Shown here: positions 292 to 14,853 of the stretch, in pieces
How the letters are laid out: each line of letters begins with the position of its first letter
Position numbering within the stretch: the stretch's first letter is position 1
IMG/VR virus record: IMGVR_UViG_3300030380_002089
Coordinates: 1 to 53,028 of that record
DNA: 53,028 nucleotides
From: a virus
Direction: 5' to 3' (one strand)
The notes under the pieces: model-generated
The model's database searches: none
Told to the model about the DNA's origin: nothing
What the model saw: the letters and a program-made list of their open reading frames with translations, nothing else
Position numbers and translations under genes: made by a program

Positions 292-294
292 ATG
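261..294 (+). promoter_or_regulatory. Start-proximal leader with GTTTAGAC, copy 1
   Basis: This 34-base segment ends in the ATG at 292 and is identical at 30 of 34 positions to 815-848, which ends at the ATG at 846. It has CTTTTTG at -31 and GTTTAGAC immediately before the start codon. The layout fits a leaderless archaeal-type promoter (AT-rich box near -30, transcription starting at the ATG). An alternative is that the segment is translated: three of the four differences fall at third codon positions of the frame continuing upstream. Confidence 0.5.
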
Positions 295-807
295 AGTCCT
301 TTTGATGATGCTTGGCGTTTGTTAAAAATGCCAATTGTACCTGATTCATACACCCAACCGAACCCCAATAATCCACATTATCATCGTGCTGATTTTGAAA
401 TGCCCGACATAAGGGATAAACCACCAAATCAAAGAGCGAGCCTCCCTCTCGGTTATTCGGAGAGAGACAGGCCGAGATATGCTGGCAAAAAGGCATCTTT
501 ACAAGGAAATTATAACCCTGAAAAAAAGGAGTTTGATATAAGAATGTTAGGTTTTGACCGCTATGGAACGCCACCAACATTACCTGATAACATGGGCTTG
601 TTGATTGATAATCCGCAAGAGAATTACCGACAGTTAAGCACTCATGCTTTAACACGAAGGCATGGAGTCGCTACGGCTATGATGGATATGTTATCATTTT
701 TGAGAGAAAAATATGGCTTTGAACCTGCAAAGCCGACCAATTTAACTTTTGAGGGAGACCGTTTTTGGGGCGATAGGGAGTCATGGCCTGTGAGGGATGA
801 ACTATGA
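292..807 (+). CDS. Tagged hypothetical protein (W-L-L-K tag at N-terminus)
   Basis: 171 residues from the ATG at 292, of unknown function. Residues 4-12 read FDDAWRLLK, one of more than a dozen copies of a shared short motif in this window. The rest is polar, rich in Pro, Asn, Asp and Arg, without membrane segments or recognisable domain; a short C-terminal segment (HALTRRHGVATAMMDMLSFL) looks helical. The start at 292 is chosen over an in-frame TTG at 265 because GTTTAGAC abuts this ATG and because the tag then sits at residue 4, as in the sister genes. The stop overlaps the next gene's ATG (ATGA), suggesting translational coupling. Confidence 0.75.
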   Translation: MSPFDDAWRLLKMPIVPDSYTQPNPNNPHYHRADFEMPDIRDKPPNQRASLPLGYSERDRPRYAGKKASLQGNYNPEKKEFDIRMLGFDRYGTPPTLPDNMGLLIDNPQENYRQLSTHALTRRHGVATAMMDMLSFLREKYGFEPAKPTNLTFEGDRFWGDRESWPVRDEL

Positions 808-1034
808 CCGGAGCCTTTTTGTCTTGTTCTCTCATGGGTTTAGACATGGGAGCATTTGAACAGGCTTGGCAACTTCTAAAAGAAGAAGGCCCTTACATTA
901 CTTGGCAGACTCCTGAAAAGAAAATGGGCTACATAGATGGGAAGGGTCCTTACGATGCTAATTCTATCTACGCTTATTTGAAACAATACGATATGTATGA
1001 CAGTCGGATTGAAAGCGTGTCAGGGGAGGAATAA
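804..1034 (+). CDS. Small tagged hypothetical protein
   Basis: 76 residues from ATG 804, or 62 residues if translation starts at ATG 846. From 846 the protein begins MGAFEQAWQLLKEE, the shared tag; from 804 there is a 14-residue extension reading MTGAFLSCSLMGLD. The 804 start is supported by the ATGA overlap with the previous gene, the 846 start by the adjacent GTTTAGAC and by tag position. The remainder is a short polar tail rich in Tyr and Gly. Function unknown; possibly little more than a tag with a small cargo. Confidence 0.65.
   Translation: MTGAFLSCSLMGLDMGAFEQAWQLLKEEGPYITWQTPEKKMGYIDGKGPYDANSIYAYLKQYDMYDSRIESVSGEE
815..848 (+). promoter_or_regulatory. Start-proximal leader with GTTTAGAC, copy 2
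   Basis: Second copy of the 34-base segment at 261-294 (30 of 34 identical), ending at ATG 846. It lies inside the coding frame that opens at 804, so it may act as an internal promoter or mark a second start. CTTTTTG begins 31 bases before the ATG. Confidence 0.45.
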
Positions 1035-1036
1035 AT

Positions 1037-1912
1037 ATGACAGCATTCGACAACGCTTGGACACTTCTTAAGAATCGTGGGTTTGAAATGGACCCACGGT
1101 ATGAAGACGAGCGTGAACGCCAACTTGAAGAAATCCGTTATAGTGACGACCCTGAAAGAGATGAGTTGCTAAGTTTTCCCAATCAATATATTCCACCAAA
1201 GTCAAAGCAAGGACTTTACGAACTCCGTTACTACGACGACTTAGAGCGACAAAATAGGTTACGGTCACAGACCGGACCAATGTATCAGCAACAACAAGAC
1301 CAAGAGGCTGAGCGTATAGAGGCGGAAGGAATTGATTTACCTGATGTGCCGAGCAGTGCACCACCTGTTGACATAGGGCGGGCTGGTAGTCTGACTCCTG
1401 AACCTTTCAGACCTGACCTTGAACAAACGAAGCAAAGAATGTCACCTTTGGGTCAGGCATTAGCACAGGCTAGGTCACAACCTCCTCAGCCTTTGCAGTT
1501 TGAGAAGGCTTGGGCTACTCTCAAGGCAGACCCAAATATGCTTGATACTCAAGGGCGTAGTATACCCCCTGCATTAGCAAATCCTCAAAATTTTAATAGA
1601 CCGCCGGGCGATGCTGAAAGAAGTTTCCAATCAATAAGGGATGCAATGCTTGCAGCAGAAACAGATATGCCTTATTATGATAATCTTAGACAATACTTAT
1701 TGGCCAGAATACATAGAACTTCTAGGCCAAGCGCCTATCATTTTCTACAAAACGCTAATGAAGAAGAAAGAGAAAACATGCGTCAAAATGAGCGAAGGTT
1801 TGGCCCGCTGAGTTCTATTTTAGCCCAAGATACTGACAAGGGTAGAGAATTTTATCAGTACAGAGGGCCTGATGTATCAAACATGTATGCTCCTGTGCCT
1901 CAGCCAGAATAA
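1037..1912 (+). CDS. Hypothetical protein with two W-L-L-K tags
   Basis: 291 residues, start ATG 1037 shortly after the previous stop and behind GGGGAGGAATAAAT, a reasonable ribosome site. The N-terminus is MTAFDNAWTLLKNR (tag 1). A second, slightly divergent tag FEKAWATLKAD begins at residue 155, after a Pro/Gln-rich linker. The protein therefore looks like two tagged modules joined head to tail. Both modules are highly polar, rich in Arg, Glu, Gln and Tyr, with no membrane segment. No domain recognised. The duplicated tag suggests fusion of two formerly separate cargo-type proteins; this is inference. Confidence 0.75.
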   Translation: MTAFDNAWTLLKNRGFEMDPRYEDERERQLEEIRYSDDPERDELLSFPNQYIPPKSKQGLYELRYYDDLERQNRLRSQTGPMYQQQQDQEAERIEAEGIDLPDVPSSAPPVDIGRAGSLTPEPFRPDLEQTKQRMSPLGQALAQARSQPPQPLQFEKAWATLKADPNMLDTQGRSIPPALANPQNFNRPPGDAERSFQSIRDAMLAAETDMPYYDNLRQYLLARIHRTSRPSAYHFLQNANEEERENMRQNERRFGPLSSILAQDTDKGREFYQYRGPDVSNMYAPVPQPE

Positions 1913-1961
1913 TTTCAGGAAGACCGACAAGTTTAATTTCTACACTGCTTTAGGCTCGCAC

Positions 1962-2144
1962 ATGAGTATGTTAGAATTTTTATTCCCAAGAATGATTGGG
2001 TTATTTATACTGGGATTTATATTTGGATTTGTTTGGATATGGTTTACTTTCATAGCCGATGAAGACCCCGGTATGGTTATTTTTGAAGACGAGACTGAAC
2101 TGCAAGAAATGTGCATGAATGGCCTTCGGAGAGTGAAGGAATGA
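1962..2144 (+). CDS. Small single-pass membrane protein
   Basis: 60 residues from ATG 1962. Residues about 9-32 form one very hydrophobic, aromatic-rich helix (MIGLFILGFIFGFVWIWFTF), followed by an acidic cytoplasmic-type tail (DEDPGMVIFEDETELQEM). The frame is open further upstream, but the longer N-terminus overlaps the previous gene and is polar, so the shorter form is preferred. GTTTAATTT at 1931-1939 lies about 30 bases upstream and could be a TATA-like element. The stop overlaps the ATG of the HMG-CoA lyase-like gene by four bases, so the two are probably translated together. Function unknown. Confidence 0.6.
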   Translation: MSMLEFLFPRMIGLFILGFIFGFVWIWFTFIADEDPGMVIFEDETELQEMCMNGLRRVKE

Positions 2145-2962
2145 ATGTAACCGTCTATGAGGTCGGTCCTCGTGACGGTTTGCAGTATTTAGAACACATA
2201 GTAAGTGTAGATGATAAACGACAACTGATACAGGCTCTTTACGATGCTGGCATAGAACATATCGAAGAAGTAAGTTTTGCTCATCCTAAGCGTTTACCTC
2301 AGATGGCTGATGCTGAACAAGTCTTTACTGGCAGGGGTGCTGGGTTAGTTATGAATAAAAAAGGCTTTGACAGGGCCTGTTCTATAGAAACTAAGAAGAT
2401 AAATATAGTGTTTAGTCCATGTGAAACTTTCAATATTAATAACATGGGTAAGACTCGCTCGGAGATAGTTTTGATGTACAAGACATTTATGGACAAGGTG
2501 CCTAAAGAAAATGTAAGAGTTTACATTAGCATGGCCTTTGGAAGTCGTCATAGTGGTGTAGTAAGTCCAAGTCTAATGCGTCTTTGCATTCGAGATGCTA
2601 AGATGTTTGGCGACACTGTGGTATTCTCTGACACTAATGGGGCGGGCACTAGAAAAGAAGTTGCTCTTTGGGCACAGATGGCTATAGAAGAAGGCATGAA
2701 GCCAGCACTACATTTACATCATAGAGGCGATGAATCGAGAGCAGTGTCCTTACTTAACGGTATAAAGGAGTTCGACAGTAGTATACAGGGTTTGGGCGGT
2801 TGTCCTTTTACAGAAGACGGTGGTGCTAACTTAAGCACAGAGACACTGGTTAGGCATCTAAACGCATGGGGATTTGATTGTGGCACTACCGAGGACAACT
2901 TGAAAGAAGCATCTAGGCTTGCTTATCAAATATCTAATCCTACCGTGACGCTTTTATCATAG
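2141..2962 (+). CDS. HMG-CoA lyase-like DRE-TIM metallolyase
   Basis: 273 residues. Hydroxymethylglutaryl-CoA lyase cleaves HMG-CoA to acetyl-CoA and acetoacetate, using a TIM barrel and a divalent metal. The hallmarks are present: VGPRDGLQ at residues 8-15 (R11 catalytic, D12 metal ligand), SFAHPKRLPQMAD at 45-57, FSDTNGAG at 162-169, HLHH at 191-194 giving the H-x-H metal pair (H191, H193), then C221 in GGCPF and N230 nine residues later, the spacing seen between C266 and N275 in the human enzyme. It is slightly shorter than the usual roughly 300 residues. ATG 2141 overlaps the upstream stop; a GTG at 2111 would add a polar extension without similarity. Related DRE-TIM aldolases cannot be excluded on specificity. 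An auxiliary metabolic gene inside a virion gene cluster is unusual. Confidence 0.88.
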   Translation: MNVTVYEVGPRDGLQYLEHIVSVDDKRQLIQALYDAGIEHIEEVSFAHPKRLPQMADAEQVFTGRGAGLVMNKKGFDRACSIETKKINIVFSPCETFNINNMGKTRSEIVLMYKTFMDKVPKENVRVYISMAFGSRHSGVVSPSLMRLCIRDAKMFGDTVVFSDTNGAGTRKEVALWAQMAIEEGMKPALHLHHRGDESRAVSLLNGIKEFDSSIQGLGGCPFTEDGGANLSTETLVRHLNAWGFDCGTTEDNLKEASRLAYQISNPTVTLLS

Positions 2963-2979
2963 TTATCTTTACGAGACAC

Positions 2980-3348
2980 ATGGCGGGCGCTTTTGAACAA
3001 GCATGGAGTTTGTTGAAAGCATTGCCCGGACAGAGAGAAATGGCTGACTCAGGTCGAACTATGACTCAGAGAGAAATGGGTTACGGTAGCGATGATGATG
3101 TTGATATGGGTTCTGTTCATCCGGGTGCACTTTCTGCTATGAGAAGATTACAGGGCGAAGGTCCACTAGACACTCGTAGTTATGAAAGTGAAGATGACCT
3201 TACAGATGAAGCAGGTAATTACACTCCAGATGCAAAGGGTAGACTAATAGGAACTTCTCGACAAAGAGATGTTACTAGGTCAGGTGCAAGAAAGCCAGAC
3301 ACAGGTAAATTTTACAACCCTGATACTGGGCAAATGGAAGAAAGGTGA
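2980..3348 (+). CDS. Tagged hypothetical protein
   Basis: 122 residues, ATG 2980. The N-terminus is MAGAFEQAWSLLKALP, the shared tag, nearly identical to that of the gene at 804/846 (GAFEQAW in both). The remainder is polar and apparently disordered: Asp/Glu-rich in the middle (GSDDDVDMG), basic near the end. There is no ATGA coupling to the upstream gene; CTTTTAT at 2951-2957 lies 29 bases before the start and fits a TATA-like box of a leaderless transcript. Function unknown. Confidence 0.7.
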   Translation: MAGAFEQAWSLLKALPGQREMADSGRTMTQREMGYGSDDDVDMGSVHPGALSAMRRLQGEGPLDTRSYESEDDLTDEAGNYTPDAKGRLIGTSRQRDVTRSGARKPDTGKFYNPDTGQMEER

Positions 3349-3354
3349 ACAACA

Positions 3355-4587
3355 ATGACAGCATTTGACCACGCATGGAGACTTTTGAAAGCAACGCCTG
3401 AACAACAACTCATGGGTATGAGAGGTTCTATTCCACAGGCTCTCAGTAGATTTCCAAGAGGAGATGTTTCGAGAGCGCCTTTCACAGGTGACGAAGGAAT
3501 GGAAGACCGTGAAGAACGGATGGCAGAAATAGCAAGGCTTCGACAAGAAGGGATGGCACAGTCTGACAAAGACCGAATGACTTCTGAGGGTGCTAGAGGA
3601 CCCGCTGATTTACGACAATATTACGATAGACAATTCCAAGAAGGCTTCATCGCCCCTCAAGAAAAGAGAATGATGTTAAGACCGGGAGAAACTGAAACAG
3701 AAAGAGCAGCCAGATTAAATCTTGGTGGCGGTCAAAGAGGAGGAAGAATGGATGCAAGCAGTATGACTGCTGCTCAAAGATTTGGTAGACCTGATGAAGA
3801 AACCGGAGAAACTGGAATGAGACCTAAGACAAGAGTTAGAAGAGGTAACATGGAAGGTATTATGACAATGGGGCGAGGTCGAGGCCGAAGAGGTGCGTTT
3901 AATCCAAGAACTGCTGAGGCTTTACCAGAGCGCCCGCCAGAATCTAAACCAATTACTTCGGCGCAGAAGCGTATAGCGTTACTCGAAAGTATGCAAAGAC
4001 AAAACCCTAATTTTGACATTAAAATACCTACAGAACAAGAGTTAATGGAACAAGAAACTCAAGAAAAGAGACCTTACAAATCACGCATAGACAATGAAGA
4101 GTTAGAGGAAATAGAAGATAATTTGACTAATATATACGGACCAGAGATGGCAAGTAGGATTGTTCAGTCTATGATTGACGACCCTCAGCCTCCAGCCCTT
4201 AGAACTGCTGGAGTCCGTCAGCAAAACATTGACCCTCAAGGAGATAGACCAACCTTTAGACCAAGTAGCGGTCAATTCCTAGGTCCTCAGTTTGATGATA
4301 TGGGCGAACCTAAAATGACTTCCAGAGGCAGACCTTCGATGACAGGTATTTCCCCTATGGATATTGAACAGATGGGTCGTCAGGCTATGGTCGAAGGTGA
4401 GATTGACCCACGAATTACTAGTAGATATACTGACGCTTTGGATAAAGTACCAGTGACTGCTGGTGAAAAGGCAAGAACTGACAGGGCAGCAGAACAGGCT
4501 ATGCGAGAATATGCTCAAAGAACAGGTCAAGGTATGACTTATACCCAAGGTACTGATGCTGAGGGTAATGTTCGATACGGTCTTTAA
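3355..4587 (+). CDS. Arg/Gln/Met-rich tagged protein, probable internal virion protein
   Basis: 410 residues, ATG 3355 six bases after the previous stop, with a possible GAAAGGTGAA ribosome site. It begins MTAFDHAWRLLKATPEQQ, the shared tag. The rest is low-complexity and rich in Arg, Gln, Met, Glu and Gly, with RGG-like clusters around residues 165-182 (GRGRGRRG) and repeated short RPS/RG segments, and no membrane helix. Such composition suits a disordered, nucleic-acid-associated protein. Packaging with the genome is inferred from the tag and composition, not from similarity. Confidence 0.7.
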   Translation: MTAFDHAWRLLKATPEQQLMGMRGSIPQALSRFPRGDVSRAPFTGDEGMEDREERMAEIARLRQEGMAQSDKDRMTSEGARGPADLRQYYDRQFQEGFIAPQEKRMMLRPGETETERAARLNLGGGQRGGRMDASSMTAAQRFGRPDEETGETGMRPKTRVRRGNMEGIMTMGRGRGRRGAFNPRTAEALPERPPESKPITSAQKRIALLESMQRQNPNFDIKIPTEQELMEQETQEKRPYKSRIDNEELEEIEDNLTNIYGPEMASRIVQSMIDDPQPPALRTAGVRQQNIDPQGDRPTFRPSSGQFLGPQFDDMGEPKMTSRGRPSMTGISPMDIEQMGRQAMVEGEIDPRITSRYTDALDKVPVTAGEKARTDRAAEQAMREYAQRTGQGMTYTQGTDAEGNVRYGL

Positions 4588-4627
4588 TGACACCAAAGTT
4601 CAAGTATAGTGTTACTTACCCGTAGAC

Positions 4628-4801
4628 ATGCTGTGGGATTTAGTTTTAGGTTTGTCTTGGCTGGCCCTCGCACTGTCGATGTATGTTTTGACACAGACAA
4701 TATCTACTATGCGAAAGGATGTAGACGACCTTATGGCGATGGTAAGAGTGATTAGGTATAATTCTCTCAAAGAAAGGGATGATAAAAATGACACAAAGTA
4801 A
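4628..4801 (+). CDS. Small single-pass membrane protein (57 aa)
   Basis: An open frame from ATG 4628 to TAA 4799-4801. It starts MLWDLVLGLSWLALALSMYV, one clear membrane helix, followed by a charged tail with a short amphipathic segment (TMRKDVDDLMAMVRVIRY) and a Lys/Asp-rich end. TAGAC directly precedes the ATG, as in the genes at 292 and 846, and an AAGTATAG box lies about 26 bases upstream. The next gene starts inside its 3' end. The shape resembles small phage membrane or spanin-like proteins, but no function can be assigned. Confidence 0.6.
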   Translation: MLWDLVLGLSWLALALSMYVLTQTISTMRKDVDDLMAMVRVIRYNSLKERDDKNDTK

Positions 4802-4943
4802 ATCTAAAGGTAAGCAAAAGAGTTTACCATGTGAACATTGTCAATATCACCCTACTAAGCGGGTTTATATTAAGCAGAGTAATGTTTTCAAGGGGTTCGC
4901 TTGGTACTGTAAAGTGTGTCAAAAGTTTACTATAGCGGAGTAA
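4788..4943 (+). CDS. Small zinc-ribbon protein (51 aa)
   Basis: ATG 4788 to TAA 4941-4943, overlapping the previous gene by 14 bases. After a lysine-rich start the protein has CEHC at residues 15-18 and CKVC at 41-44, separated by a strand-rich segment (KRVYIKQSNVFKGFAWYC). This is the layout of a minimal zinc ribbon binding one zinc ion through four cysteines. Nucleic-acid or protein binding is likely; the exact role is unknown. Confidence 0.65.
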   Translation: MTQSKSKGKQKSLPCEHCQYHPTKRVYIKQSNVFKGFAWYCKVCQKFTIAE

Positions 4944-5081
4944 CTGTTAAATAAGCACTCATTAACGCAGGTTTGGCTGGCTTATCTTTTGGCTCTTTCT
5001 CGGTTATGCTTGAACACACCTATTTTTCCAATTTCTTTCTTGGGTAAGTCGGCCACCCTAATGTTTTTGTTGTGATTGAGC

Positions 5082-6269
5082 ATGGCTCTGTTTATGGAGG
5101 CAGCGTCAGCAATAGATATTGCTTGGCTTTTGCTTAAAAATGAGCCTATACAAGAAATGTCAAACGACGACTTAATGGCTTTAGTAGAAGGACCAACTGC
5201 CTTTGATGCGGGTCTAGGTCATTATGCTAGACAAGAAAACCCTGCGACTCCTGAACAGCAGCAACAAGCCTTACGAGAACTAGAATTGAGACAAATGGAA
5301 ATGTCAGGTAATATGCCTCAAGTCTACGACTCTCCTGATGATTTAGAACCTGTTAGGCAAATAGTAGATTTTTATGAGCCTCAATTCGACAGCACTGGTA
5401 TTGGCGCCTCTTCTATTCCTCAAACAGAAAAGGAAGGGGAGCAGTACATAGAAGACTTTCCGGGTGAATTAGATGAAGAATATATGGACAGAATTATGGA
5501 TGTAAGAGAATCAATGCCCGGCCAAAGTAATATTTTAAATGACGATTACCTAGGTACATATAATCATCTGAAAAATACTGCACCACCCGAAGTCGCTCAG
5601 CAATTTTTTGAAAGGTATAGAAATTTTATTATGAATCAAAATGAAAATCCTGAGTACTTAAGCCAGTCATTAATCCAAGCACTTGATGAAAACGCACCCG
5701 CACCCACCGCCCCAAAGTATACTAGAGAATTTCCAACAGATGAAAGTTTATTCGACATTAAGCCACCTAAAGGAGTAAGTATGGTTTCTCCAGATGCCAC
5801 AGGCTTTTCGCACAGGTTCCAAGATATTAACAAAGGTGAACCTATGGACATTGCTTGGCGTTTGCTCAAACGCCAAACTACTCTTCCTAATTTTGATATG
5901 GGACTAGATGAAACCACCGGCTATCAAGGAGTGGCGCCTGTTCAACAGGTAAGTGCTCAGCCTTTGGGTTACAAAGATGCGTATTTACAGGGTCAATATC
6001 CTGATGAGTTTTGGTCGGCAGTTGGTGGTGACCCTGAGATAACTAGGGGTCATGGAGGCTCTCGACACCGAGCAGATGAGCAGGGTAATTACCTTGCAGT
6101 AGGAGTCCGTGGTCGACAACCAATGGGTGATTTACCTACTCGTGGACCCTTTAGACCAAGAAAAGGTAGAGCAGGTTATCCTCAAGATATGGGCGTAAGG
6201 GTAATATCTTCGGGCGATATGCCTGAACCGGAGCAGATGGTTACTACGCCAATGAGAGGAGGTAATTGA
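5082..6269 (+). CDS. Hypothetical protein with two W-L-L-K tags
   Basis: 395 residues from ATG 5082 (an in-frame TTG at 5076 would add two residues). The first tag, IDIAWLLLK, is at residues 11-19 after MALFMEAASA. The second, MDIAWRLLKRQ, begins at residue 255. Between them lies an acidic, Gln/Glu/Pro-rich segment; after the second tag the protein becomes Gly/Arg-rich with repeated GD/RG patches. The layout repeats that of the gene at 1037: two tagged modules in one chain. No known domain and no membrane segment. The 138-base gap before it (4944-5081) contains nothing recognisable beyond a T-rich stretch. Confidence 0.72.
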   Translation: MALFMEAASAIDIAWLLLKNEPIQEMSNDDLMALVEGPTAFDAGLGHYARQENPATPEQQQQALRELELRQMEMSGNMPQVYDSPDDLEPVRQIVDFYEPQFDSTGIGASSIPQTEKEGEQYIEDFPGELDEEYMDRIMDVRESMPGQSNILNDDYLGTYNHLKNTAPPEVAQQFFERYRNFIMNQNENPEYLSQSLIQALDENAPAPTAPKYTREFPTDESLFDIKPPKGVSMVSPDATGFSHRFQDINKGEPMDIAWRLLKRQTTLPNFDMGLDETTGYQGVAPVQQVSAQPLGYKDAYLQGQYPDEFWSAVGGDPEITRGHGGSRHRADEQGNYLAVGVRGRQPMGDLPTRGPFRPRKGRAGYPQDMGVRVISSGDMPEPEQMVTTPMRGGN

Positions 6270-6270
6270 C

Positions 6271-6585
6271 ATGGATTTAGCGTTTGAAGAAGCATGGGGT
6301 ATTCTCAAAGGTAAAAAGAAATCAAAACCTTTCCATGGCTATAATCCTAAAAAGCATGCTAAAACTGGTGGATTAAATGCAAAAGGTCGTGCTGCGGCTA
6401 AGCGTAAGACTGGTGCAAATCTTAAGCGACCTGTCACAAAAAAACCAAGTAAACTTAAGCGTGGCAGTAAAGCGTCTAAGCGCCGTAAATCATTCTGTGC
6501 TCGTATGACAGCAGTTAAAGGCCCTACAAGTAAAAAGGGTAAATTGACTCCTAAAGGAGCAGCGTTGAAAAGGTGGAATTGTTAA
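6271..6585 (+). CDS. Lysine-rich tagged protein with DUF6321-like domain
   Basis: 104 residues, very basic. The N-terminal tag is LAFEEAWGILK (residues 3-13). The rest matches, from memory, the DUF6321 pattern of marine phages and large viruses: a GGLNAKGR block, a TGANLKRPV block, SFCARM at about 75-80, and the terminal KGKLTPKGAALKRWNC. The family has no established biochemical function; its charge suggests nucleic-acid binding. The stop and the next ATG share one base (TAATG), indicating coupling. Here the conserved domain carries the window's own tag in front. Confidence 0.75.
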   Translation: MDLAFEEAWGILKGKKKSKPFHGYNPKKHAKTGGLNAKGRAAAKRKTGANLKRPVTKKPSKLKRGSKASKRRKSFCARMTAVKGPTSKKGKLTPKGAALKRWNC

Positions 6586-7232
6586 TGGCAGAGTGGTGGA
6601 ATCTTTTAAAGAAACAAAAGGACCCTGATTTGACCTTGCCTAGAGGTAAAGAAGTGGTTCTTCAAGCCGAAGACAAAGATTACGAAAGAGGTTTACTTGT
6701 TAAGTTGTTGAAGAACGGTGGTTATGAAATGGCTTATTGGTATGATAAACATAAACCATATCCAATAGAAGTATTAGTTGATGGTAAATCAATCAAAAAA
6801 GATGCTAAAAAAGTTACCATGAAATTCCATCCTCAGTTGAAAAAGGCTATGGAAAATACCGAACAAGTGATTTTAAATGAAATAGAAAAAGAAGGTGGTG
6901 CTTTAGGTATGAAAAACCTTAGAAAAGTTGTACCTGATGAAGAAGAATTGAAATCTACATTGGATAATATGATTAACCAAGGTAAAGTATTTGTTCACGA
7001 AGATGGTGACATATATACCCACGAACCTGATAATAGAATGGAGAAGTCTTGTGACTGTAGTCATTGTGTCGGTAGTTTTGCTGCTATGGACTTTTTAGAA
7101 AAAAAATTGTGTCCAGCGGGTAAAGCAGCAGCCAAGCGTAAGTTCAAAGTTTATCCATCAGCGTATGCAAATGGTTGGGCAGTGCAATACTGCAAAGGTA
7201 AATTCCGTGGTAAAAAGAAGGGGAAGAAATGA
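6585..7232 (+). CDS. Basic protein with tag-like N-terminus and YPSAYAN domain
   Basis: 215 residues from ATG 6585 (a GTG at 6573 would overlap the previous gene). It begins MAEWWNLLKKQ, a variant of the shared tag. Residues about 90-145 resemble a small winged-helix-like fold (VILNEIEKEGGALGMKNLRK, then a KVFVHEDGDIYTH hairpin), an impression only. CDCSHC is at about 154-159. The C-terminus, KLCPAGKAAAKRKFKVYPSAYANGWAVQYCKG and a lysine tail, is a motif common in marine phage and large-virus proteins of unknown role. Probable nucleic-acid-associated virion protein. Confidence 0.72.
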   Translation: MAEWWNLLKKQKDPDLTLPRGKEVVLQAEDKDYERGLLVKLLKNGGYEMAYWYDKHKPYPIEVLVDGKSIKKDAKKVTMKFHPQLKKAMENTEQVILNEIEKEGGALGMKNLRKVVPDEEELKSTLDNMINQGKVFVHEDGDIYTHEPDNRMEKSCDCSHCVGSFAAMDFLEKKLCPAGKAAAKRKFKVYPSAYANGWAVQYCKGKFRGKKKGKK

Positions 7233-7786
7233 GCATATGTACTTGCCATGATGTTCTTATCGTCAAGAACCTAAACAGGTGGTTTAAAGAGAAATGGGTC
7301 GATGTTTCTCGTAAAGACAAAGATGGTAAGCATCCCCCATGCGGTAGGTCAAAGGCTAAGAAAGGAAGTAAGGGTTATCCAAAGTGTCGACCAAGTGTGA
7401 AGGTATCAAGTAAAACTCCAAAGACTTCTGGTTCAATGTCCGAAGGACAAAAGCGAGCAGCGACTAAGCGTAAGCGAAGTAAAAAACAAGGAGTTGGTGG
7501 TAAGCCAACTATTGTTAAGTCACCAATGGACCTCGCTTTTCAGTTGTTGAAAGACGCAGTAAGTCCAGAGGCTAAGCGTCACAAGTTAGAGTATGATAAA
7601 AAATATGAGTCTAGTCCTGAGCGTGTAAAGTATCGTGAGGAATTAAATCGTGAGCGTAGAAAAAGGGGCATTTACGGTCATGGAGGGCCTGATATGAGCC
7701 ATACTAAGGACCATACGCTGGTTGCAGAAAGTCCACATGCGAACAGGGCTAGGCACTTTAAAGAGCGTGGTACACTTAAAGGATAA
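7229..7786 (+). CDS. Basic two-module protein with internal tag
   Basis: 185 residues, ATG 7229 overlapping the previous stop (ATGA). The N-terminal half (WFKEKWVDVSRKDKDG, CGRSKAKKGSKGYPKC, then EGQKRAATKRKRSK) matches a lysine-rich module I know from phage and large-virus proteins (DUF5872-like; name given from memory). At residue 100 comes the tag MDLAFQLLKD. A second basic module follows (YESSPERVKYREELNRERRK, then SPHANRARHFKERGTLKG), another small motif seen in marine viruses. Two domains that elsewhere stand alone are joined here through the tag. Probably a DNA-associated packaged protein. Confidence 0.72.
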   Translation: MSICTCHDVLIVKNLNRWFKEKWVDVSRKDKDGKHPPCGRSKAKKGSKGYPKCRPSVKVSSKTPKTSGSMSEGQKRAATKRKRSKKQGVGGKPTIVKSPMDLAFQLLKDAVSPEAKRHKLEYDKKYESSPERVKYREELNRERRKRGIYGHGGPDMSHTKDHTLVAESPHANRARHFKERGTLKG

Positions 7787-7817: not shown

Positions 7818-8024
7818 GTGGATGAGTTTTGGGACACACTATTTCAACACATGTTAGCAGTGGCTTTTGAAAATGTCATGCGTATGGAAGAAAAGGTTAG
7901 CGAATACGACTCGCCAGAAGCCCTTTGTCTTTTAGTAGAGGCTGCGGATAACTATCAGTTCTTGCGACAGGCTTATCACGATAAATGCGCTGGGGATATA
8001 CATGTCGAGTTCAAGCCCTATTGA
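7818..8024 (+). CDS. Small acidic helical protein
   Basis: 68 residues beginning with GTG at 7818; no ATG alternative gives a comparable frame. It is predicted largely helical and acidic (DEFWDTLFQHMLAVAFENVM, then MEEKVSEYDSPEALCLLVEA). The sequence CCTTAGCATG just upstream and an A/T-rich CTAAATTAG at -31 could supply a promoter. The 3' end overlaps the next gene's start by 23 bases. Its first residues weakly recall the tag without the diagnostic A-W-x-L-L-K. Function unknown. Confidence 0.5.
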   Translation: MDEFWDTLFQHMLAVAFENVMRMEEKVSEYDSPEALCLLVEAADNYQFLRQAYHDKCAGDIHVEFKPY

Positions 8025-9084
8025 TTCGGCATGGTCGTTATTACAAAACGACGACAAGATTGAGAAGGTTCTTCCACTTATTCCCTTAGCAATCGGTGCA
8101 GGTTTTGGTGCTGCTGGTGCTTTTAGTGGCGCTGGTGGTAGATTCATTAATCCAGAAACTGGTGAAGTTGACCCCGGATTTTATGCAGACCCTAAGTATC
8201 AAGACCCTTTGACTGGTGGACTTATTGCTGAGGGAGAGGTTGGTGATACTCCTTTTAGTACAGGTAATACTAACCAAGACAGGTTTTTGGGCGGTGCTGT
8301 AGGTGCACTTCAAGCATTCAATCCTATAGGTATGGCGGGCAGAGCGCTTAAACCTGCTTCAAGAGGGGCTAAAGCACTTCGGGCTGGTAAATCCAAACCT
8401 ACTATCACTCAAGTTTCACCGGGTGTAACCGATACCACCTTTTCTAGGAGGCAAGTTCTTAATAATGCTGTTAGAGAAAGAGCAGCAAGAGGACTAGAAG
8501 GTGCAGGTAGATTAGGACAAAAGGGCCTAAATGTAGCAGGTAGAGGTGCACAATTTGCAGGTTTTGCTCAAGAACAAGGTCTCGGTGACTTAGCAGCAGG
8601 TCTTGCTGGTGGTTATGCTATGGGCCAATTACCACAACCTGCTACAGGTTTTGCATCACAAATGGGGTCAGCAGGTGCTGCCCCGTCACAACAAACTCCA
8701 GTCAGCGGAAACGCAGACCCGTATGCTTTGAGGGAAATATATAACCCACAGGCGGGTAGTGCGTTTGAAACTCAACAAGAGTTTGGCGGGCTTGGATTAC
8801 AGAAAGGTGATAATATGTTTAAACAAAACATTGGAGAAGAATTGTTGAATGAAGTGGCTTATAGACTTCATAAAGCACATTGTATGACGGAACAAAAAGC
8901 AGACTGTCCAAAAGGCTGCAAAGGTTGTCCTAATTGTGATGGTGACGATAAGAAGAAAGCCGATAGCAAAAAGAAACCTGCTCATGGCATGGTTATTGTT
9001 ATCGGTTCAAAAGCCGGTCCGGGTCCATCTACTGATGGCAAAAGAGACAAACTCGACTCTGATAAGGACAAGAAAGAAGAGTGA
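8002..9084 (+). CDS. Tagged Gly/Ala-rich protein with C-terminal Cys cluster
   Basis: 360 residues, ATG 8002. The tag PIDSAWSLLQND is at residues 6-17. Next comes a hydrophobic Gly/Ala segment (about 24-46: LPLIPLAIGAGFGAAGAFSG) that could contact membrane or form a flexible virion segment. A long Gly/Ala/Arg-rich region follows, and from about residue 272 a helical part (MFKQNIGEELLNEVAYRLHK) with CPKGCKGCPNCDGD, a dense Cys cluster likely to bind zinc. The C-terminus is strongly charged (Lys/Asp). No family recognised. Composition recalls internal or pilot proteins ejected with DNA, which is inference. Confidence 0.68.
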   Translation: MSSSSPIDSAWSLLQNDDKIEKVLPLIPLAIGAGFGAAGAFSGAGGRFINPETGEVDPGFYADPKYQDPLTGGLIAEGEVGDTPFSTGNTNQDRFLGGAVGALQAFNPIGMAGRALKPASRGAKALRAGKSKPTITQVSPGVTDTTFSRRQVLNNAVRERAARGLEGAGRLGQKGLNVAGRGAQFAGFAQEQGLGDLAAGLAGGYAMGQLPQPATGFASQMGSAGAAPSQQTPVSGNADPYALREIYNPQAGSAFETQQEFGGLGLQKGDNMFKQNIGEELLNEVAYRLHKAHCMTEQKADCPKGCKGCPNCDGDDKKKADSKKKPAHGMVIVIGSKAGPGPSTDGKRDKLDSDKDKKEE

Positions 9085-9222: not shown

Positions 9223-9789
9223 GTGCAAGCAGGTATAGAATCTAATCGTGAACACGACCAAGCAGAAATAAGATTGATGGGACTGATACTTACACAGGCA
9301 GTTTCAATAGGAATTGCAGTGGGTATTTTTGACGCTGAACTATGGATTGATTTAGACGACCCTACAGTAAATGGAGTGACATATGCTATGGCTGCATTTG
9401 CTGTTCAAGGTTTGGCTTATTATTTATTCAAAATGTTCTTTCAACAAGGTATGGATGAGAGAGCAAGAATGGCCTCTCAAGAAAGGGAGCGTCGAAATAG
9501 ATACAGGTCTATGGAATTTACATTCGATAGGCGCAGACAAGACATGGAAATGCGTATGCAAGAAGCGCAGTTAGAGGCTGAACTCAAATGGATGGAAGAA
9601 AACCCCGGCCAAACTCCTCCTTGGATAGAAGCAAGGATGTATGGGGACAGTTTGGGTACTGCTGATTTTGTTCCAGAAGTTACAAAGACTACTAATCCTT
9701 TGACATTAGGTGTCGATTTTACAGAAGAAAAGCAAAAAAAGTCTGGCAAGATTAGAGGGGCAGATGGTAAATTTAAGAAAAAGGAGTGA
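9223..9789 (+). CDS. Two-helix membrane protein with coiled-coil tail
   Basis: 188 residues from GTG 9223 (an ATG at 9221 is out of frame). Two membrane segments are visible: about residues 20-42 (GLILTQAVSIGIAVGIF) and 53-75 (YAMAAFAVQGLAYYLFKMFF). Then a long charged helix (about 78-130: DERARMASQERERRNRYRSM and beyond, Glu/Arg/Met-rich) that should be a coiled coil, and a Lys-rich C-terminus. First gene of a compact cassette that continues with another membrane protein and a membrane-anchored GTPase. GTAAAGTC at about -33 could be its promoter box. Function unknown; membrane scaffold for the cassette is an inference. Confidence 0.65.
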   Translation: MQAGIESNREHDQAEIRLMGLILTQAVSIGIAVGIFDAELWIDLDDPTVNGVTYAMAAFAVQGLAYYLFKMFFQQGMDERARMASQERERRNRYRSMEFTFDRRRQDMEMRMQEAQLEAELKWMEENPGQTPPWIEARMYGDSLGTADFVPEVTKTTNPLTLGVDFTEEKQKKSGKIRGADGKFKKKE

Positions 9790-9795
9790 TAACTC

Positions 9796-10044
9796 TTGGG
9801 CCGCATCTTCAAAACTCCTAGCGATGATGCTGTGGAAGAAACTTTGAGGAGCATGCATATAGCAAATACAGTAGATGTTGCTTATGAAAGAGGCATGGGT
9901 TGGGTTAAAGTAGTGTTATTTTCTACAATAACTGCTTTTACTATCAGTGCTTTTGAATATTATAGTGATTGGAATCTGTGGCAATCTACTGGTAACTGGT
10001 TGAAAGAGTGGTTACAAAATCGAGCAGATTCTATATTCGATTAG
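9796..10044 (+). CDS. Small membrane protein of the GTPase cassette
   Basis: 82 residues starting at TTG 9796, with AAGGAG eleven bases upstream. It has one membrane helix (about 33-54: GWVKVVLFSTITAFTISAFE) flanked by a polar N-terminus and an aromatic, amphipathic C-terminus (WNLWQSTGNWLKEWLQN). The next gene, the GTPase, starts eight bases after its stop. Probably co-transcribed and acting at the same membrane. No family recognised. Confidence 0.55.
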   Translation: MGRIFKTPSDDAVEETLRSMHIANTVDVAYERGMGWVKVVLFSTITAFTISAFEYYSDWNLWQSTGNWLKEWLQNRADSIFD

Positions 10045-10052
10045 GTGAAGTT

Positions 10053-10772
10053 ATGTCAGCATTAGGTGGTTCTGCTCTCGTCGGAGGAGTGGTATTTGCT
10101 AAGGAATTGTGGCATTATTGGAAACCTAGGAGAGTTGGAGTCTATGGACCTACTATGGTTGGTAAGACTACATTAGACCGCTATATGACTACACCGGGTG
10201 AAATGGAAGAAATACCGATTAGTGAAAGGACAAAGCATTTCAAAGTACCGGGAATTAATAGATTTCTCTTACCTCGACCAAGCAGAAAACGAGTCACCTA
10301 CAAGGGTGATACTAGAGTAGTTTATTCTTCTGATATAGGAGGAGAGGAAAGGTTTTGGAATTTATGGTTAGATGATTTAGTTAATCGCCAAGTAGAGGCA
10401 GTAGTTTTTTTAATAGACCACCGTAGTAGCAAGGGCGGTGATGAAGCAGTGCAAGCGGTTGGTGGTTTCAAATACTTAGTCGACGCTATACTTCACAGGC
10501 AGTATCGTTATCGTAATCTAAGGTCTTGGTGGCGTGGTAAAAAATATTCACCTAAATTAATTATGTTAGTTGCTAATAAAGCCGACCAATGGTGGGATGA
10601 ACAGGCGAATATACTTTGGCAACAACAAAGATTGGGAGAGCATAAGATATTTGACCCATTTAGAGAAGATTTGGTTAGGCTTCAAAAAGCAGGTGTACCT
10701 ACTAAAAGAGGTATGATGGCTACTAAAATAGGATGGAATGTAGAAAATACAATGTTAGATTTACTTACTTAG
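10053..10772 (+). CDS. Membrane-anchored small GTPase, Arf/SR-beta-like
   Basis: 239 residues from ATG 10053, behind GGTGA. A GTG at 10008 would overlap the previous gene and is less likely. Residues 5-19 form a short N-terminal membrane segment. Then come the Ras-superfamily G motifs: G1 GPTMVGKT (32-39), G3 DIGG followed by EERFWNLW (94-105), strikingly like the D-x-G-G-x-x-x-x-x-x-x-W of Arf and SR-beta GTPases, G4 NKAD (175-178), and a probable G5 ATK (223-225). Length and order fit a complete GTPase. The N-anchor plus Arf-like domain is the topology of SR-beta of the SRP receptor. Its role in the virus is unknown; partners are probably the flanking membrane proteins. Confidence 0.85.
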   Translation: MSALGGSALVGGVVFAKELWHYWKPRRVGVYGPTMVGKTTLDRYMTTPGEMEEIPISERTKHFKVPGINRFLLPRPSRKRVTYKGDTRVVYSSDIGGEERFWNLWLDDLVNRQVEAVVFLIDHRSSKGGDEAVQAVGGFKYLVDAILHRQYRYRNLRSWWRGKKYSPKLIMLVANKADQWWDEQANILWQQQRLGEHKIFDPFREDLVRLQKAGVPTKRGMMATKIGWNVENTMLDLLT

Positions 10773-10780
10773 GTGATAAA

Positions 10781-11806
10781 ATGAATAATTGGGGATTTGG
10801 AGGATATGGAAGAGTGCCACAAGGCGATGCGAACTTAGCAAACATGAGTCAGGCTCACTTGATAGCCTTAAGTCAGCAGGGTAATGCTAGTCACGAACAA
10901 TTACTTGAAATACAGGCTGCTCAGCAAGGTATGAAACAGGTTGCTGAGAAGCAAAATATAGAAGTCCCAAAGGTCAATTTTTATCCAAGTAGGCATCCTG
11001 ACCCAAGAAAGGCAAGAAAGCAAGACATTAAACAGGCTCGTAAATTACTTACTCCTACCAAAAGAAGCCTACTTAATCCTTTGAGATGGATTTGGGGTAT
11101 GAAATATAGATACAATCGTCAAAGTAACTTATGCGTTATTGACGGTTGTGATTGTGAAGAACTGATTAAGTATGACAATCTTTATGCAAAAATAACAGAT
11201 GAAGAATCTGGACAGAGCCTTTGGGACCTTTATTGGAGAAACCCCGTAACGCAAACACCAGAGCCATTTGTTGCTAGAGAAAATGTAACTGATGGTCGAA
11301 AAATGAAAGGTACTTACTGCCCTGAGCATTTACATCTTTATCATTTACTTTGTAAATGGGAATTGGAAGCCGATAAAGACCACAATAAAACAAAGACTGG
11401 TATGAAAGAAATGGTTAAGAAAGGAGTTTCTACAATCGCAGTGCCAATATCTATAGTTAAGAAGAAAGACAATACCCCTGAATTTTTGAAAAAGTATGAG
11501 CCTTTCTTTATGGAACTTGAAAAAGACTCCAAGACACAATCTGGAATAAACTTAATTCATTATAAAAATCCAGAAACAGGGATTAATGATATTACTGCTA
11601 TATATTTTGATTTGAGATTGTTTCAAAAAGAAATATTAGCGACTAATCCACAACTTAGTGACGCTATTTCTAACTTAGGGATTACACAAAATCTTACTCC
11701 AAGCGCTGGAGGCTCGCTTGGAATGGCTATGAATAGTACGACCAATGGTGTTATCAATCAAAACACCTTGGAGCAAACAGAACAGATGAGCCTTCCTCAA
11801 CAATAG
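10781..11806 (+). CDS. Putative zinc-binding protein of the GTPase cassette
   Basis: 341 residues from ATG 10781 (behind TAGGTGATAAA, eight bases after the GTPase stop). The N-terminal 60 residues are Gln/Ala-rich and helical, followed by a basic stretch (about 70-110). Cys/His residues at 118, 123, 125, 180, 183 and 191 (CVIDGCDC, then YCPEHLHLYHLLC) could bind zinc. A central alpha/beta-looking region follows, and the C-terminus is Asn/Gln/Met-rich. No membrane segment. Tight spacing suggests it is a soluble partner or effector of the GTPase; that is inference. No family recognised. Confidence 0.65.
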   Translation: MNNWGFGGYGRVPQGDANLANMSQAHLIALSQQGNASHEQLLEIQAAQQGMKQVAEKQNIEVPKVNFYPSRHPDPRKARKQDIKQARKLLTPTKRSLLNPLRWIWGMKYRYNRQSNLCVIDGCDCEELIKYDNLYAKITDEESGQSLWDLYWRNPVTQTPEPFVARENVTDGRKMKGTYCPEHLHLYHLLCKWELEADKDHNKTKTGMKEMVKKGVSTIAVPISIVKKKDNTPEFLKKYEPFFMELEKDSKTQSGINLIHYKNPETGINDITAIYFDLRLFQKEILATNPQLSDAISNLGITQNLTPSAGGSLGMAMNSTTNGVINQNTLEQTEQMSLPQQ

Positions 11807-11814
11807 GTGATACA

Positions 11815-12456
11815 ATGGGAATATTTGGAAACAATCAACAACAGAATACTGGAACTTTGAATTTAGGCGTAGGTCAGCCCGGTCAAATGCCTGTTCAAAG
11901 CCAAAATCCTTTTGCTCCTCAGAACGGAATGATGCAACAAATGAGTCAAAATCCTTTCATGGCAGGTATGGTAGGTGGCACAGGCATGCAACAAGGTATG
12001 ATGGGTCAACCTATGGTACCTCCAAGCGAAACTGATATACTATTGGCTTTGATGAAAAGCCTAGCCCCTGCTGACCGATTTATTGTCGGTGCTCAAATGC
12101 AAACTCTTTTACAATTACTTAATGATTTAGTTAGTTTTTCAGTGCTAGAGATATTAAAGAACGCTAAATTTACAATAGATGAAGAAGATAGCACTATGCA
12201 AATGGATGTAACTAGTTTACCTCAAAATCTTCAAACAATGAGTGGTGAAAATGTGGCTAATCAATTCAATGCGCTAAAAATGTCAAGTCAGCAAAATATA
12301 CAAAACGCTGAAATGCAACAGCAGCAAATAGCAGCGATGGCTCAACAATCTATGATGGGGGGTGCCTTGAGTGCCGCTTTACAAGATGAAGGTTTTATGA
12401 ATAAAGCGGGTACTGCTGCCGGTAGTTTCATGGGCAGAATGATGGGGATGAGATAA
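11815..12456 (+). CDS. Gln/Met/Gly-rich cassette protein
   Basis: 213 residues, ATG 11815, again behind a GGTGAT ribosome site. The first 75 residues are low-complexity Gln/Met/Gly/Pro (MMQQMSQNPFMAGMVGG). A helical core covers about 75-125 (ETDILLALMKSLAPADRFIV, then LLNDLVSFSVLEILKNA). The C-terminus is again Gln/Met-rich with a Gly/Met end (GSFMGRMMGMR). The termination codon overlaps the next ATG. Function unknown; composition suggests a flexible assembly factor. Confidence 0.6.
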   Translation: MGIFGNNQQQNTGTLNLGVGQPGQMPVQSQNPFAPQNGMMQQMSQNPFMAGMVGGTGMQQGMMGQPMVPPSETDILLALMKSLAPADRFIVGAQMQTLLQLLNDLVSFSVLEILKNAKFTIDEEDSTMQMDVTSLPQNLQTMSGENVANQFNALKMSSQQNIQNAEMQQQQIAAMAQQSMMGGALSAALQDEGFMNKAGTAAGSFMGRMMGMR

Positions 12457-12698
12457 TGATAGAAAATAATCCAATGATAGGTTTTTCTTCGACAGCAATG
12501 GGAATATTTGCACCAGTAAAAAGAGTCATAGTCGATATGGTAATGGTTCAACTATTAGCAATCATAGTTACATTAGGGTTGATACTAGTTACAGGTGCCG
12601 ATAATTTGAGTAGTGATACTATGGCATATCTTGTAGCAGGTTTATTCGCTGCTTTCTTTATGCTCGGCGGAATCTACAGTAGAATATCGAGTATCTAG
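12456..12698 (+). CDS. Two-helix small membrane protein
   Basis: 80 residues, ATG 12456 overlapping the previous stop (TAATGAT). It has two membrane helices, about residues 25-46 (VDMVMVQLLAIIVTLGLILV) and 57-76 (MAYLVAGLFAAFFMLGGIYS), separated by a short polar turn, giving a hairpin. It ends the cassette that began at 9223. Its 3' end overlaps by 57 bases the end of the minus-strand zinc-ribbon gene. Phage holins have this size and layout, but no lysis enzyme is nearby, so holin is only one option. Confidence 0.6.
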   Translation: MIENNPMIGFSSTAMGIFAPVKRVIVDMVMVQLLAIIVTLGLILVTGADNLSSDTMAYLVAGLFAAFFMLGGIYSRISSI

Positions 12699-12965
12699 TT
12701 CTACATGCCTACCCCACTTTTTCAACGGACATTCGCTTGAACTTAGGCTCGTTTTGACTCTCATCTGACATCCGCATTCTGTGCATCTGTTACTAGTATG
12801 CTCCCAACTAGGACAAACCATACATATGTCCATTCTTATTTGCTTTACATCTTTTGGTACATATCTTCTCATAAATATGTCTCTTCCGGCTCTCGTTAGA
12901 CTTTTTGCTGTCTCTATAGAAACAGGAACTCCCATGATTTTAGGCTTAATTCTTGGCAGTTTCAT
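12642..12965 (-). CDS. Zinc-ribbon protein, only minus-strand gene
   Basis: 107 residues from the ATG complementary to 12963-12965. It has six cysteines in a pattern typical of small phage zinc-ribbon proteins: C48, C51, C61, C64, C66 and C79, with CMVCPSWEH, RCTECGCQM and the characteristic K-T-x-L-x(4)-CPLKKW. The N-terminal part has a basic helical segment (IETAKSLTRAGRDIF). CTTTTGA lies about 31 bases before the start, matching other promoters here. It diverges from the small terminase gene with 60 bases between starts and converges on the GTPase cassette, overlapping it by 57 bases. Possibly a transcription regulator; function unproven. Confidence 0.75.
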   Translation of the reverse strand: MKLPRIKPKIMGVPVSIETAKSLTRAGRDIFMRRYVPKDVKQIRMDICMVCPSWEHTSNRCTECGCQMRVKTSLSSSECPLKKWGRHVELDTRYSTVDSAEHKESSE

Positions 12966-13025
12966 ATAACTATGCTGGCACTTCTTGTTCAAAAGGGTTA
13001 TCCGTGTTAATGACATGGGCTGCAC
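12966..13025. promoter_or_regulatory. Divergent promoter region
   Basis: These 60 bases lie between two divergent start codons (minus-strand 12965 and plus-strand 13026). They include a CTTTTGA box, read on the minus strand, at about -31 of the zinc-ribbon gene. A clear box for the plus-strand gene is not visible; GGTTATC at 12996-13002 is the nearest candidate. A shared operator is plausible. Confidence 0.4.
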
Positions 13026-13721
13026 ATGGCGGGTGAGCGACAGACTAAGCGCTCATGTCCTTTCTGTCAACACGAAGATAGAGATACCCTAGAACAAAAC
13101 ATCATTGACGGTATCTCTGAGCCTAAGATTTTAGACAAAGATATGGGTTGGAGAGCCAACACTGCTGAGCGACATATGAAAAATCACGCAGGTGAATATC
13201 ACAAAGGTGCAAATCATTCCTGTGTAGTTTGCACGAGTGACGATAGAAGCGCTTTGGAAGTTGCATACTTTGAAGGTGACCGTACCAGTGAAGACATTGC
13301 TACTGAACTAGACTGTAGTGAAGAATTAGTTTACAGACACATGAAACATCACTTTCAACCACTCGTTAAGCGTGGTGCAACCGCTATCGTTTCCGTCAAA
13401 GTAGGGCAAGAAGTAGATATTTTGAGAGGGAATGTAGAAAGTCTCAACGGTAAGTTGGCTCAGTTTATGACAGAAACTAGTATACACGATGATGGGGTAA
13501 TATCTGATATGGTTAAATTACATAAAGAGGTCAGAGAAACTCTCAAAGATTTATCAGCGTATCAGGAAAAATGGGCAGAGCCTACTCAAAATATTGCCAA
13601 CAATACTATCAATGTGCTTAAACTGGAGTTGAGCAAGGAGAGTCCTGATACTTGGAAGCGTATCAAAAAGAATTTACTTGACTCTGATAATGTTGAACAA
13701 GATATAATGGATTTACTGTGA
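13026..13721 (+). CDS. Putative small terminase / DNA-binding protein with duplicated zinc module
   Basis: 231 residues. The N-terminal 110 residues hold two copies of a 55-residue module with exactly equal spacing: C11-C14-H50-H54 and C66-C69-H105-H109. Each starts C-x2-C-x-x(2)-D-x-R and ends [EY]RH-M-K-[NH]-H, with a helix-turn-helix-like middle (KDMGWRANTAERHMKNH; TELDCSEELVYRHMKHH). The C-terminal half is helical and oligomerisation-prone. DNA-binding N-terminus plus helical oligomer domain, encoded upstream of the large terminase, is what a small terminase looks like. The assignment is by architecture and position, and 4.3 kb separates it from the large subunit, so a regulator remains possible. 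Confidence 0.6.
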   Translation: MAGERQTKRSCPFCQHEDRDTLEQNIIDGISEPKILDKDMGWRANTAERHMKNHAGEYHKGANHSCVVCTSDDRSALEVAYFEGDRTSEDIATELDCSEELVYRHMKHHFQPLVKRGATAIVSVKVGQEVDILRGNVESLNGKLAQFMTETSIHDDGVISDMVKLHKEVRETLKDLSAYQEKWAEPTQNIANNTINVLKLELSKESPDTWKRIKKNLLDSDNVEQDIMDLL

Positions 13722-13731
13722 GGAGATATAC

Positions 13732-14853
13732 ATGCCAATGATTACAGGTTCTGACACAAGGATGTACAATCCTAGAAGTGAATCTATGCTTGGTTATTCT
13801 AAAGACGATGATTATCGTTACGGAATAGGTGACCCTAAATCGATGGAAGAGTATCGTGATAAAAAGCAGTCTGAAAAAGAAGCCGAACCTAAATCAGATG
13901 ATTTACCACACTTGCAGATAGAAGTTCCAAAACCTACTCCAAAGATGCCTCCAGTGATGCCGGAAGAAGAGGAGCCTGAAATGAGCGACCAATTTAATGA
14001 AGGTCAGCAGTTCGGTGCTATGACAGGAATGCCTGACATGGGTAATTTGAGTATAGGGAATGCTACAGGAACTATGCCTCAGCCCGGTGGTACACTAATG
14101 ACTGGTGAACCAATGGAAGATGCTTGGTCTACTTTGATGAAAAGTCGACTTGACAAAGTAAAGGGTGCCAAAGACCAATCTTGGAAACAACCTCAATACG
14201 AAACTCAACCGGGCGGGGCAGATATTACAACTGCCAATACTCGTCGTGCTAAATTACAATCAAGATATGTTCAACCAAGTAAGAAAAGAGGGCTTGACAG
14301 AGCACCTTTGAGCGTACATCGTTCTCACTTGGGTATCGCTACTAAGCAACCTTTGAGGCTATTTCCTCAAAAATACGGCCAACAAATGGGAAGTATGGCT
14401 CGCCGTAAGTTGATGGGCAACATCCCAACAGCGCCAGCAGGTCACGCAATGGGTCCTGAGACTACATATTCACCAAAGTCTCCTAAAGTGGCATCTGGTG
14501 CTGGGCTTCCTTTGAAAGAACCAAGAGCACCTATGATGAGAGGACAGGCTCTCGCTAAATCAGAACTTGAATTAATTAAGCAAGACCTTGAAGAGTTGAA
14601 GAAAAAAGATGATTACATGCGTTTTGCTCAGATAAGAAGACTTCTAAGACAACTGAAAGATGTTGCTGAGAGACAAGAGCGTAGGCTAAAAGCGAGTGCT
14701 GGACCCGGAGAAGTAAAAGAATCGGGGCATAGAGAGGGACAAGATAGCACTACTCGACCAGAGGGTGCTACAGAAGACATGGAGAATGACCCCAAGAATT
14801 GGGGTGCTCCTTCTACTATATTTGCAGCGAGAGGTAGCGGGAGGGTCGGCTGA
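13732..14853 (+). CDS. Hypothetical virion protein with internal W-L-L-K tag
   Basis: 373 residues, ATG 13732 behind GTGAGGAGATATAC, a strong ribosome site. The N-terminal 125 residues are acidic/Pro/Met-rich. An internal tag-like MEDAWSTLMKS begins at residue 128, followed by a strongly basic, Arg/Lys/Pro-rich part (about 137-270). A charged helix (about 278-325: ELELIKQDLEELKKKDDYMR) is likely a coiled coil. The stop overlaps the next start. It is the only tagged gene outside the left arm. Function unknown. Confidence 0.65.
   Translation: MPMITGSDTRMYNPRSESMLGYSKDDDYRYGIGDPKSMEEYRDKKQSEKEAEPKSDDLPHLQIEVPKPTPKMPPVMPEEEEPEMSDQFNEGQQFGAMTGMPDMGNLSIGNATGTMPQPGGTLMTGEPMEDAWSTLMKSRLDKVKGAKDQSWKQPQYETQPGGADITTANTRRAKLQSRYVQPSKKRGLDRAPLSVHRSHLGIATKQPLRLFPQKYGQQMGSMARRKLMGNIPTAPAGHAMGPETTYSPKSPKVASGAGLPLKEPRAPMMRGQALAKSELELIKQDLEELKKKDDYMRFAQIRRLLRQLKDVAERQERRLKASAGPGEVKESGHREGQDSTTRPEGATEDMENDPKNWGAPSTIFAARGSGRVG

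Follow-up and report, generated by a model that had tools for sequence, protein, structure and literature searches.

We identified, in a linear tailed-virus fragment of 53 kb (the window, comprising the whole analyzed stretch of 53,028 nucleotides), a peptide tag of nine to ten residues with the consensus [PA]-[FMIL]-[DE]-x-A-W-x-[LIV]-L-K, carried by proteins that otherwise differ from one another. The tag is a module distinct from the protein bodies that bear it, several of which can be identified, and it is confined to the strand encoding the structural genes in a defined group of viruses. The strand restriction, the presence of an S78 protease in the genome, the effector-type bodies, the swapping of bodies behind the tag, and the genome-specific tag dialects lead us to favor, as fairly probable, the explanation that the tag is a head-loading signal. 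In this scenario, for which we infer packaging, a binding partner, cleavage, and injection, the tag would load host-modifying proteins into the virus head.

The tag and its copies in the window

Twelve copies of the tag, looser ones included, lie in ten genes of the window, all of them in frame and on the plus strand (Table 1). The coding frames contain 10 matches to the strict motif, with none elsewhere in the six frames, and residue-shuffled versions of the window proteins (500 shuffles) contained a mean of 0.002 matches, with a maximum of 1. This bears out the claim of a first-pass annotation that one short peptide recurs on ten or more proteins of this virus. The N-terminal and internal copies named there were also located, the exception being a "variant" placed at 6585, since the ORF concerned (6573-7232) scores just 0.4 on our tag profile and does not carry a tag. 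The profile was built from the window and 15 fetched related contigs; ORF calling used a simple length criterion, so errors are possible in the starts and in some of the small ORFs.

Along the plus strand, the window runs from the tagged cluster (0.3 to 9 kb) through small membrane and GTPase-like genes and the head genes (13.7 to 32 kb) to the tail genes. As had been claimed, the terminase, capsid, and tail genes are untagged; the same is true of the portal and protease genes.

Table 1. Tag copies and head genes in the window
Feature	Positions	Strand	Gene or remark
Tag FDDAWRLLK	301..327	+	Gene 265/292-807, GNAT-like (acetyltransferase) body
Tag FEQAWQLLK	855..881	+	Gene 804-1034
N-terminal tag FDNAWTLLK	1046..1072	+	Gene 1037-1912, Gln/Arg-rich body
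Internal tag FEKAWATLK (residue 155)	1499..1525	+	Gene 1037-1912
Tag FEQAWSLLK	2992..3018	+	Gene 2980-3348
Tag FDHAWRLLK	3364..3390	+	Gene 3355-4587
N-terminal tag IDIAWLLLK	5112..5138	+	Gene 5076/5082-6269
Internal tag GEP-MDIAWRLLK	5844..5870	+	Gene 5076-6269
Tag FEEAWGILK	6283..6309	+	Gene 6271-6585, DUF6321 body (E 6.1e-15)
Internal tag MDLAFQLLK	7526..7552	+	Gene 7229-7786, joint of DUF5872 and Syn5 gp50-homologous module
Tag IDSAWSLLQ	8020..8046	+	Gene 8002-9084, Gly/Ala-rich body
Internal tag GEP-MEDAWSTLM-K	14113..14139	+	Core gene 13732-14853
Tag-like MDAGLQLLK, no Trp	23089..23115	+	Small protein 23008-23394; may be chance or coiled coil
Terminase large subunit (TerL), untagged	18042..19523	+	Anchor for finding relatives
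Portal protein, untagged	20820..22637	+	Relatives only in archaeal tailed viruses
Prohead serine protease, Peptidase_S78	29399..30832	+	E 8.9e-12; scaffold-like C-terminal region; candidate processing enzyme
Major capsid protein (MCP), HK97-type, SU10_MCP family	30850..32019	+	Candidate maturation site ELLK|ADAP, residues 31-38

Since the codons differ between copies, the likeness of the tags resides at the protein level. Third-position codon identity among the window copies averages only 0.41, which led us to reject recent DNA copying as the sole origin of the tags; the value is higher (0.58) in L163, a more distant contig, and genes 265/292 and 804 of the window have 5' leader DNA in common. 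Tag positions 3 and 6 are free to vary, so that the conserved positions 1, 4, 5, and 8 would share one face of a helix. The residue following the K is variable as well, Ala accounting for about 28% in the profile.

Apart from 54 internal copies, the tags are mostly N-terminal and near start codons, a position that would suit an element acting at the level of RNA or the nascent chain, or a degron, to control expression or stability. Such a role is very unlikely in view of the internal copies and of the retention of residues while codons vary. Internal translation starts, with the codons for Gly-Glu-Pro before Met serving as a ribosome-binding site, were likewise rejected, since the Gly and Glu codons follow general usage and versions with Ser-Glu-Pro or Ile occur.

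Virus group and strand restriction

In 26 relatives, the DNA form of the tag core gave 57 matches and the reversed pattern gave none. The profile detected 173 copies in the window and 15 related contigs at a score where reversed proteins give none. In IMG/VR, a DNA pattern for the N-terminal tagged start matched viral contigs in at least 118 stretches, and it had no match in bacterial and archaeal genomes totaling 257 Gb. The same capsid protein is encoded in 36 of 50 pattern-positive viral contigs, and the same terminase in 8 of the remaining 14; a match in L151 was set aside as an apparent chance occurrence in another phage.

Tagged ORFs account for 134 of the 584 on the structural (TerL) strand and for 0 of the 349 on the replication strand (p about 1e-30). 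PolB lies on the strand opposite TerL and is present in all 12 of the larger relatives tested. Relatives retrieved with TerL as the anchor are contigs of marine origin, and contigs reach about 109 to 116 kb. Capsid and portal proteins of the window match only archaeal tailed viruses, the best matches being Druskaviridae HVTV-1 and HCTV-1 (about 29 to 33% identity), and no relative of the capsid protein was found in the cellular genomes searched. These viruses thus combine the traits of Magrovirales, namely, archaeal tailed-virus head genes, a length of about 90 to 110 kb, PolB, and separate strands for the structural and the replication module. Judged by these genes, the source is an archaeal tailed virus, probably of the magrovirus type; magroviruses infect marine Poseidoniales archaea, and the virus group fits them (PMC12999244). 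We found no mention of the tag in the open literature searched, which included part of the main magrovirus literature.

Tags are more alike within genomes (likeness 0.586) than between genomes (0.529; 0 of 2,000 permutations), forming what may be called dialects. Such dialects are expected if each set of tags follows its own partner, and concerted copying would give the same pattern.

Bodies behind the tag and their exchange

With the tag masked, 120 tagged proteins fell into 53 single-linkage families, and only two within-genome pairs of tagged proteins are alike outside the tag. The sequences behind it are therefore unrelated, as first proposed, and the tag, which is spread over a large virus group and at least 53 body families, had been under-described. 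Recognizable bodies include a compact SpoT-like HD hydrolase (TIGR00691, E 1.8e-9), a Tpt1/ART-like (ADP-ribosyltransferase-like) family (best PDB E 0.01), DUF6321, DUF5872, zinc fingers and ribbons, and, by eye only, HExxH and ParB-like sequences. The GNAT-like family A2, to which window gene 292 belongs, has the alignment motif EEYRRRGYATALYDML, and all its named PDB matches are acetyltransferases (best E 0.02). Many bodies, most of those in the window included, have no recognizable domain. In two more distant contigs (L141 and L163), consecutive genes nearly all start with MTAFDxAWxL[LM]K before such bodies. AlphaFold models of one GNAT-like and one ART-like tagged protein both place a helix on the tag, and with pLDDT values of 43 and 49 they are too poor to be usable for a fold search.

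Three viruses carry the same leader and tag before different bodies at a locus flanked by the giant tail gene and a conserved neighbor. G018 has an ART-like body there, G016 has a SpoT-like hydrolase, and G017 has a further body (coordinates of G-numbered contigs are oriented coordinates, and G016 is the L107-L111 contig). BLAST similarity at this locus (G016-G018) covers residues 1 to 23 only and ends just past the tag. The DUF5872 gene varies in a comparable manner, being tag-joined to a gp50-like module in the window, to an inserted module plus a second tag in G003, to DUF6321 in G019, and, in G020, to a module whose G018 counterpart stands alone as a tagged gene. Genes that are solo and tagged in one virus thus recur as tag-joined modules in another. 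The maximum per ORF is five tags, in an 829-residue ORF (L102:4998-7484) whose domain assignments are weak; multi-module ORFs occur, yet most tagged proteins are single-module. Where body parts are more than 90% identical, the tags are only 76% identical, which indicates that variation or exchange of the tags is in part uncoupled from the bodies.

These data make it extremely unlikely that the tagged proteins form one fast-evolving paralogous family with the tag as its conserved start. Although several Gln/Arg/Pro-rich low-complexity bodies could mask distant homology, tags precede HD, GNAT-like, ART-like, DUF6321, and zinc-binding bodies and also occur internally, and one tag at a single locus is followed by different bodies. 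Moreover, DUF6321 and gp50-like modules are known without the tag in T7-like cyanophages, where DUF6321 adjoins capsid genes.

In all 13 of 13 contigs, the orthologue of core gene 13732-14853 carries one to three tags of the special form GEPMEDAWSSLMK. This gene might be the hub of a cargo core.

Head genes and possible processing

S78 protease orthologues are present in all 13 contigs that cover the region. The candidate maturation site of the MCP is invariant in 13 contigs, with K-A-D common to HCTV-1; in HK97, the MCP is cleaved at K103/S104 (PMC10275583). Among untagged proteins, an N-terminal hydrophobic-hydrophobic-K-[AS] occurs in 10.0% of those on the late strand versus 2.3% of those on the replication strand, a 4-fold excess that is weak because a few conserved families in related contigs drive it and the proteins are not independent. 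Late and replication proteins were alike with respect to hydrophobic-R and hydrophobic-E control sites. The MCP site and the N-terminal K-[AS] sites are suggestive only with regard to processing. The ...LLK end of the tag is probably a cut site of the prohead protease, and the internal copies and the use of the tag in polyproteins point to processing as a second role; the variable residue after K is loose for a protease site.

The location of tags at module joints and the resemblance of LLK to the K-A site conserved in the capsid protein could also mean that the tag is a mere protease site or inter-module linker that recruits nothing. We regard this as quite unlikely, since the most conserved residues (P, D/E, A, and W) lie 4 to 9 residues upstream of K, beyond what a simple cut site needs, and since single-domain proteins with an N-terminal tag would seem to gain nothing obvious by losing a dozen residues.

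A sequence at the end of the S78 domain, NPEATFRILK, was rejected as a tag (profile score, only about 8); NPEA-type endings seem to be general in the S78 family. The small head-region protein 23008-23394 (MDAGLQLLKAEN), from which Trp is absent, has a profile score of 19.7. The C-terminal motif I-P-x-T...M-x-W-x-[DE]-[IV]-H-x-L-A is found both here and in the scaffold region of the protease gene (29399-30832), perhaps as a shared capsid-binding end. Furthermore, joints or starts that lack a full tag in L101:15757-17595 and window ORF 17049-18035 show short hydrophobic-K ends, KKSVLVKA and MGKVLVKK among them, perhaps bare processing sites.

A proposed model for loading of the head

We propose that the tag would fold as a short amphipathic helix with a Pro N-cap and with F1, A4, W5, and L8 on one face. 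Within the capsid as it assembles, this helix would dock to a single shared partner, for which the scaffold, the protease-scaffold, or the capsid protein is most likely, and docking would bring a variable set of proteins into the head. The packaged proteins would then enter the host together with the DNA. The ...L-L-K end probably also serves as a prohead-protease site, with N-terminal tags being trimmed and tag-joined polyproteins being cut apart. The first-pass annotation had likewise read the tag as a recruitment helix, with the T4 capsid-targeting sequence (CTS) as the closest known concept, and this is the reading best supported by strand restriction, S78 protease, effector bodies, swapping, and dialects. 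Its further statement that the tagged proteins are often basic does not stand, the net charge per residue being +0.002 for tagged proteins versus -0.008 for other late-strand proteins (p about 1).

A docking helix and a late-strand location would also be seen if late-made effectors docked elsewhere, for example on the tail, on the host membrane, or on a host complex, and either acted in the producing cell or left it otherwise, unpackaged. We nevertheless consider this unlikely. The effector classes match those known among packaged, injected phage proteins, with GNAT, ART, ParB-like, and RelA/SpoT-type modules delivered by phages from the virion (PMC5512222) and T4 Alt as a further case (PMC9026906). 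In addition, the core gene of the structural module is tagged in all 13 contigs, and none of the cellular genomes, 257 Gb in total, contains the tagged start.

Under the head-loading explanation, the best reading is that the tag works like the CTS of T4 without being homologous to it. Packaging of T4 internal proteins proceeds through an N-terminal sequence of 10 residues, whose targeting residues can be separated from those for processing, and the T4 gp21 protease cuts after Glu (PMC9026906). Like the CTS of IPI-III and the Alt propeptide, the tag has about 10 residues, is found N-terminally on several diverged proteins, and is swappable; both viruses encode a prohead protease, and T4 packages an ADP-ribosyltransferase where an ART-like body is tagged here (PMC9026906). 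Unlike the CTS, the tag is Trp/Lys-based and ends in L-L-K, with no conserved terminal Glu in the profile. It also serves up to about 13 cargo types per genome, with internal and repeated copies in polyproteins, and it belongs to an archaeal virus with an HK97-type S78 protease, for which packaging and trimming are predicted from sequence.

Polyvalent proteins of phages and conjugative elements (Iyer et al. 2017, PMC5512222) similarly comprise GNAT, ART, ParB-like, RelA/SpoT-type, and peptidase modules encoded near late genes, some of them multidomain. Here, by contrast, the proteins are mostly separate and small and bear one and the same short tag. At module joints, they have tags rather than a built-in processing metallopeptidase domain. 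As with encapsulin cargo-loading peptides, a short peptide would bring cargo into an HK97-fold shell; however, the tag is mostly N-terminal or internal, and no nanocompartment shell gene lies by the cargo, the shell being the virus capsid protein with its terminase, portal, and protease. The related haloarchaeal virus HCTV-1 has a related capsid and portal as well as large head-region and MuF-like proteins, possible head cargo encoded between the portal and capsid genes, but the tag is absent from the 95% of its genome that was scanned.

A wider claim, which we advance tentatively as a real but not quite even prospect, is that the tag represents a general sequence-coded cargo system. One peptide would act as both capsid address and processing site, would let each virus add, swap, or string together at least a dozen injected effectors in its genome, and would have evolved independently of T4. 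If true, a short label read from the sequence would be enough to predict all the proteins carried into hosts by uncultured, abundant marine archaeal viruses, and dozens of unknown protein families would become likely early host-takeover or counter-defense factors. The tag would then also be a second, independently evolved capsid-addressing code alongside that of T4.

Other genes near the tags

An untagged gene for an HMGL-like (TIM-barrel lyase) protein lies within the tagged cluster of the window (2111-2962), and HMGL-like genes adjoin tagged genes also in L142, L153, and L198. Their presence near tags in several contigs suggests that a metabolic gene travels with the arsenal. Between TerL and portal, the window encodes a 441-residue protein with a LAGLIDADG-like region (19537-20862), and the same interval of relatives holds a tagged protein (e.g., L130:13324-14157). 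A kinase-like reading of the tagged gene in this interval, suggested by DLKPQNW and DFG seen by eye, was dropped, as it found no profile support. The giant tail ORF of the window runs off the contig end at 2,685 residues, and in G016 (oriented positions 38052-55223) a single tail ORF of 5,723 residues occupies 17 kb.
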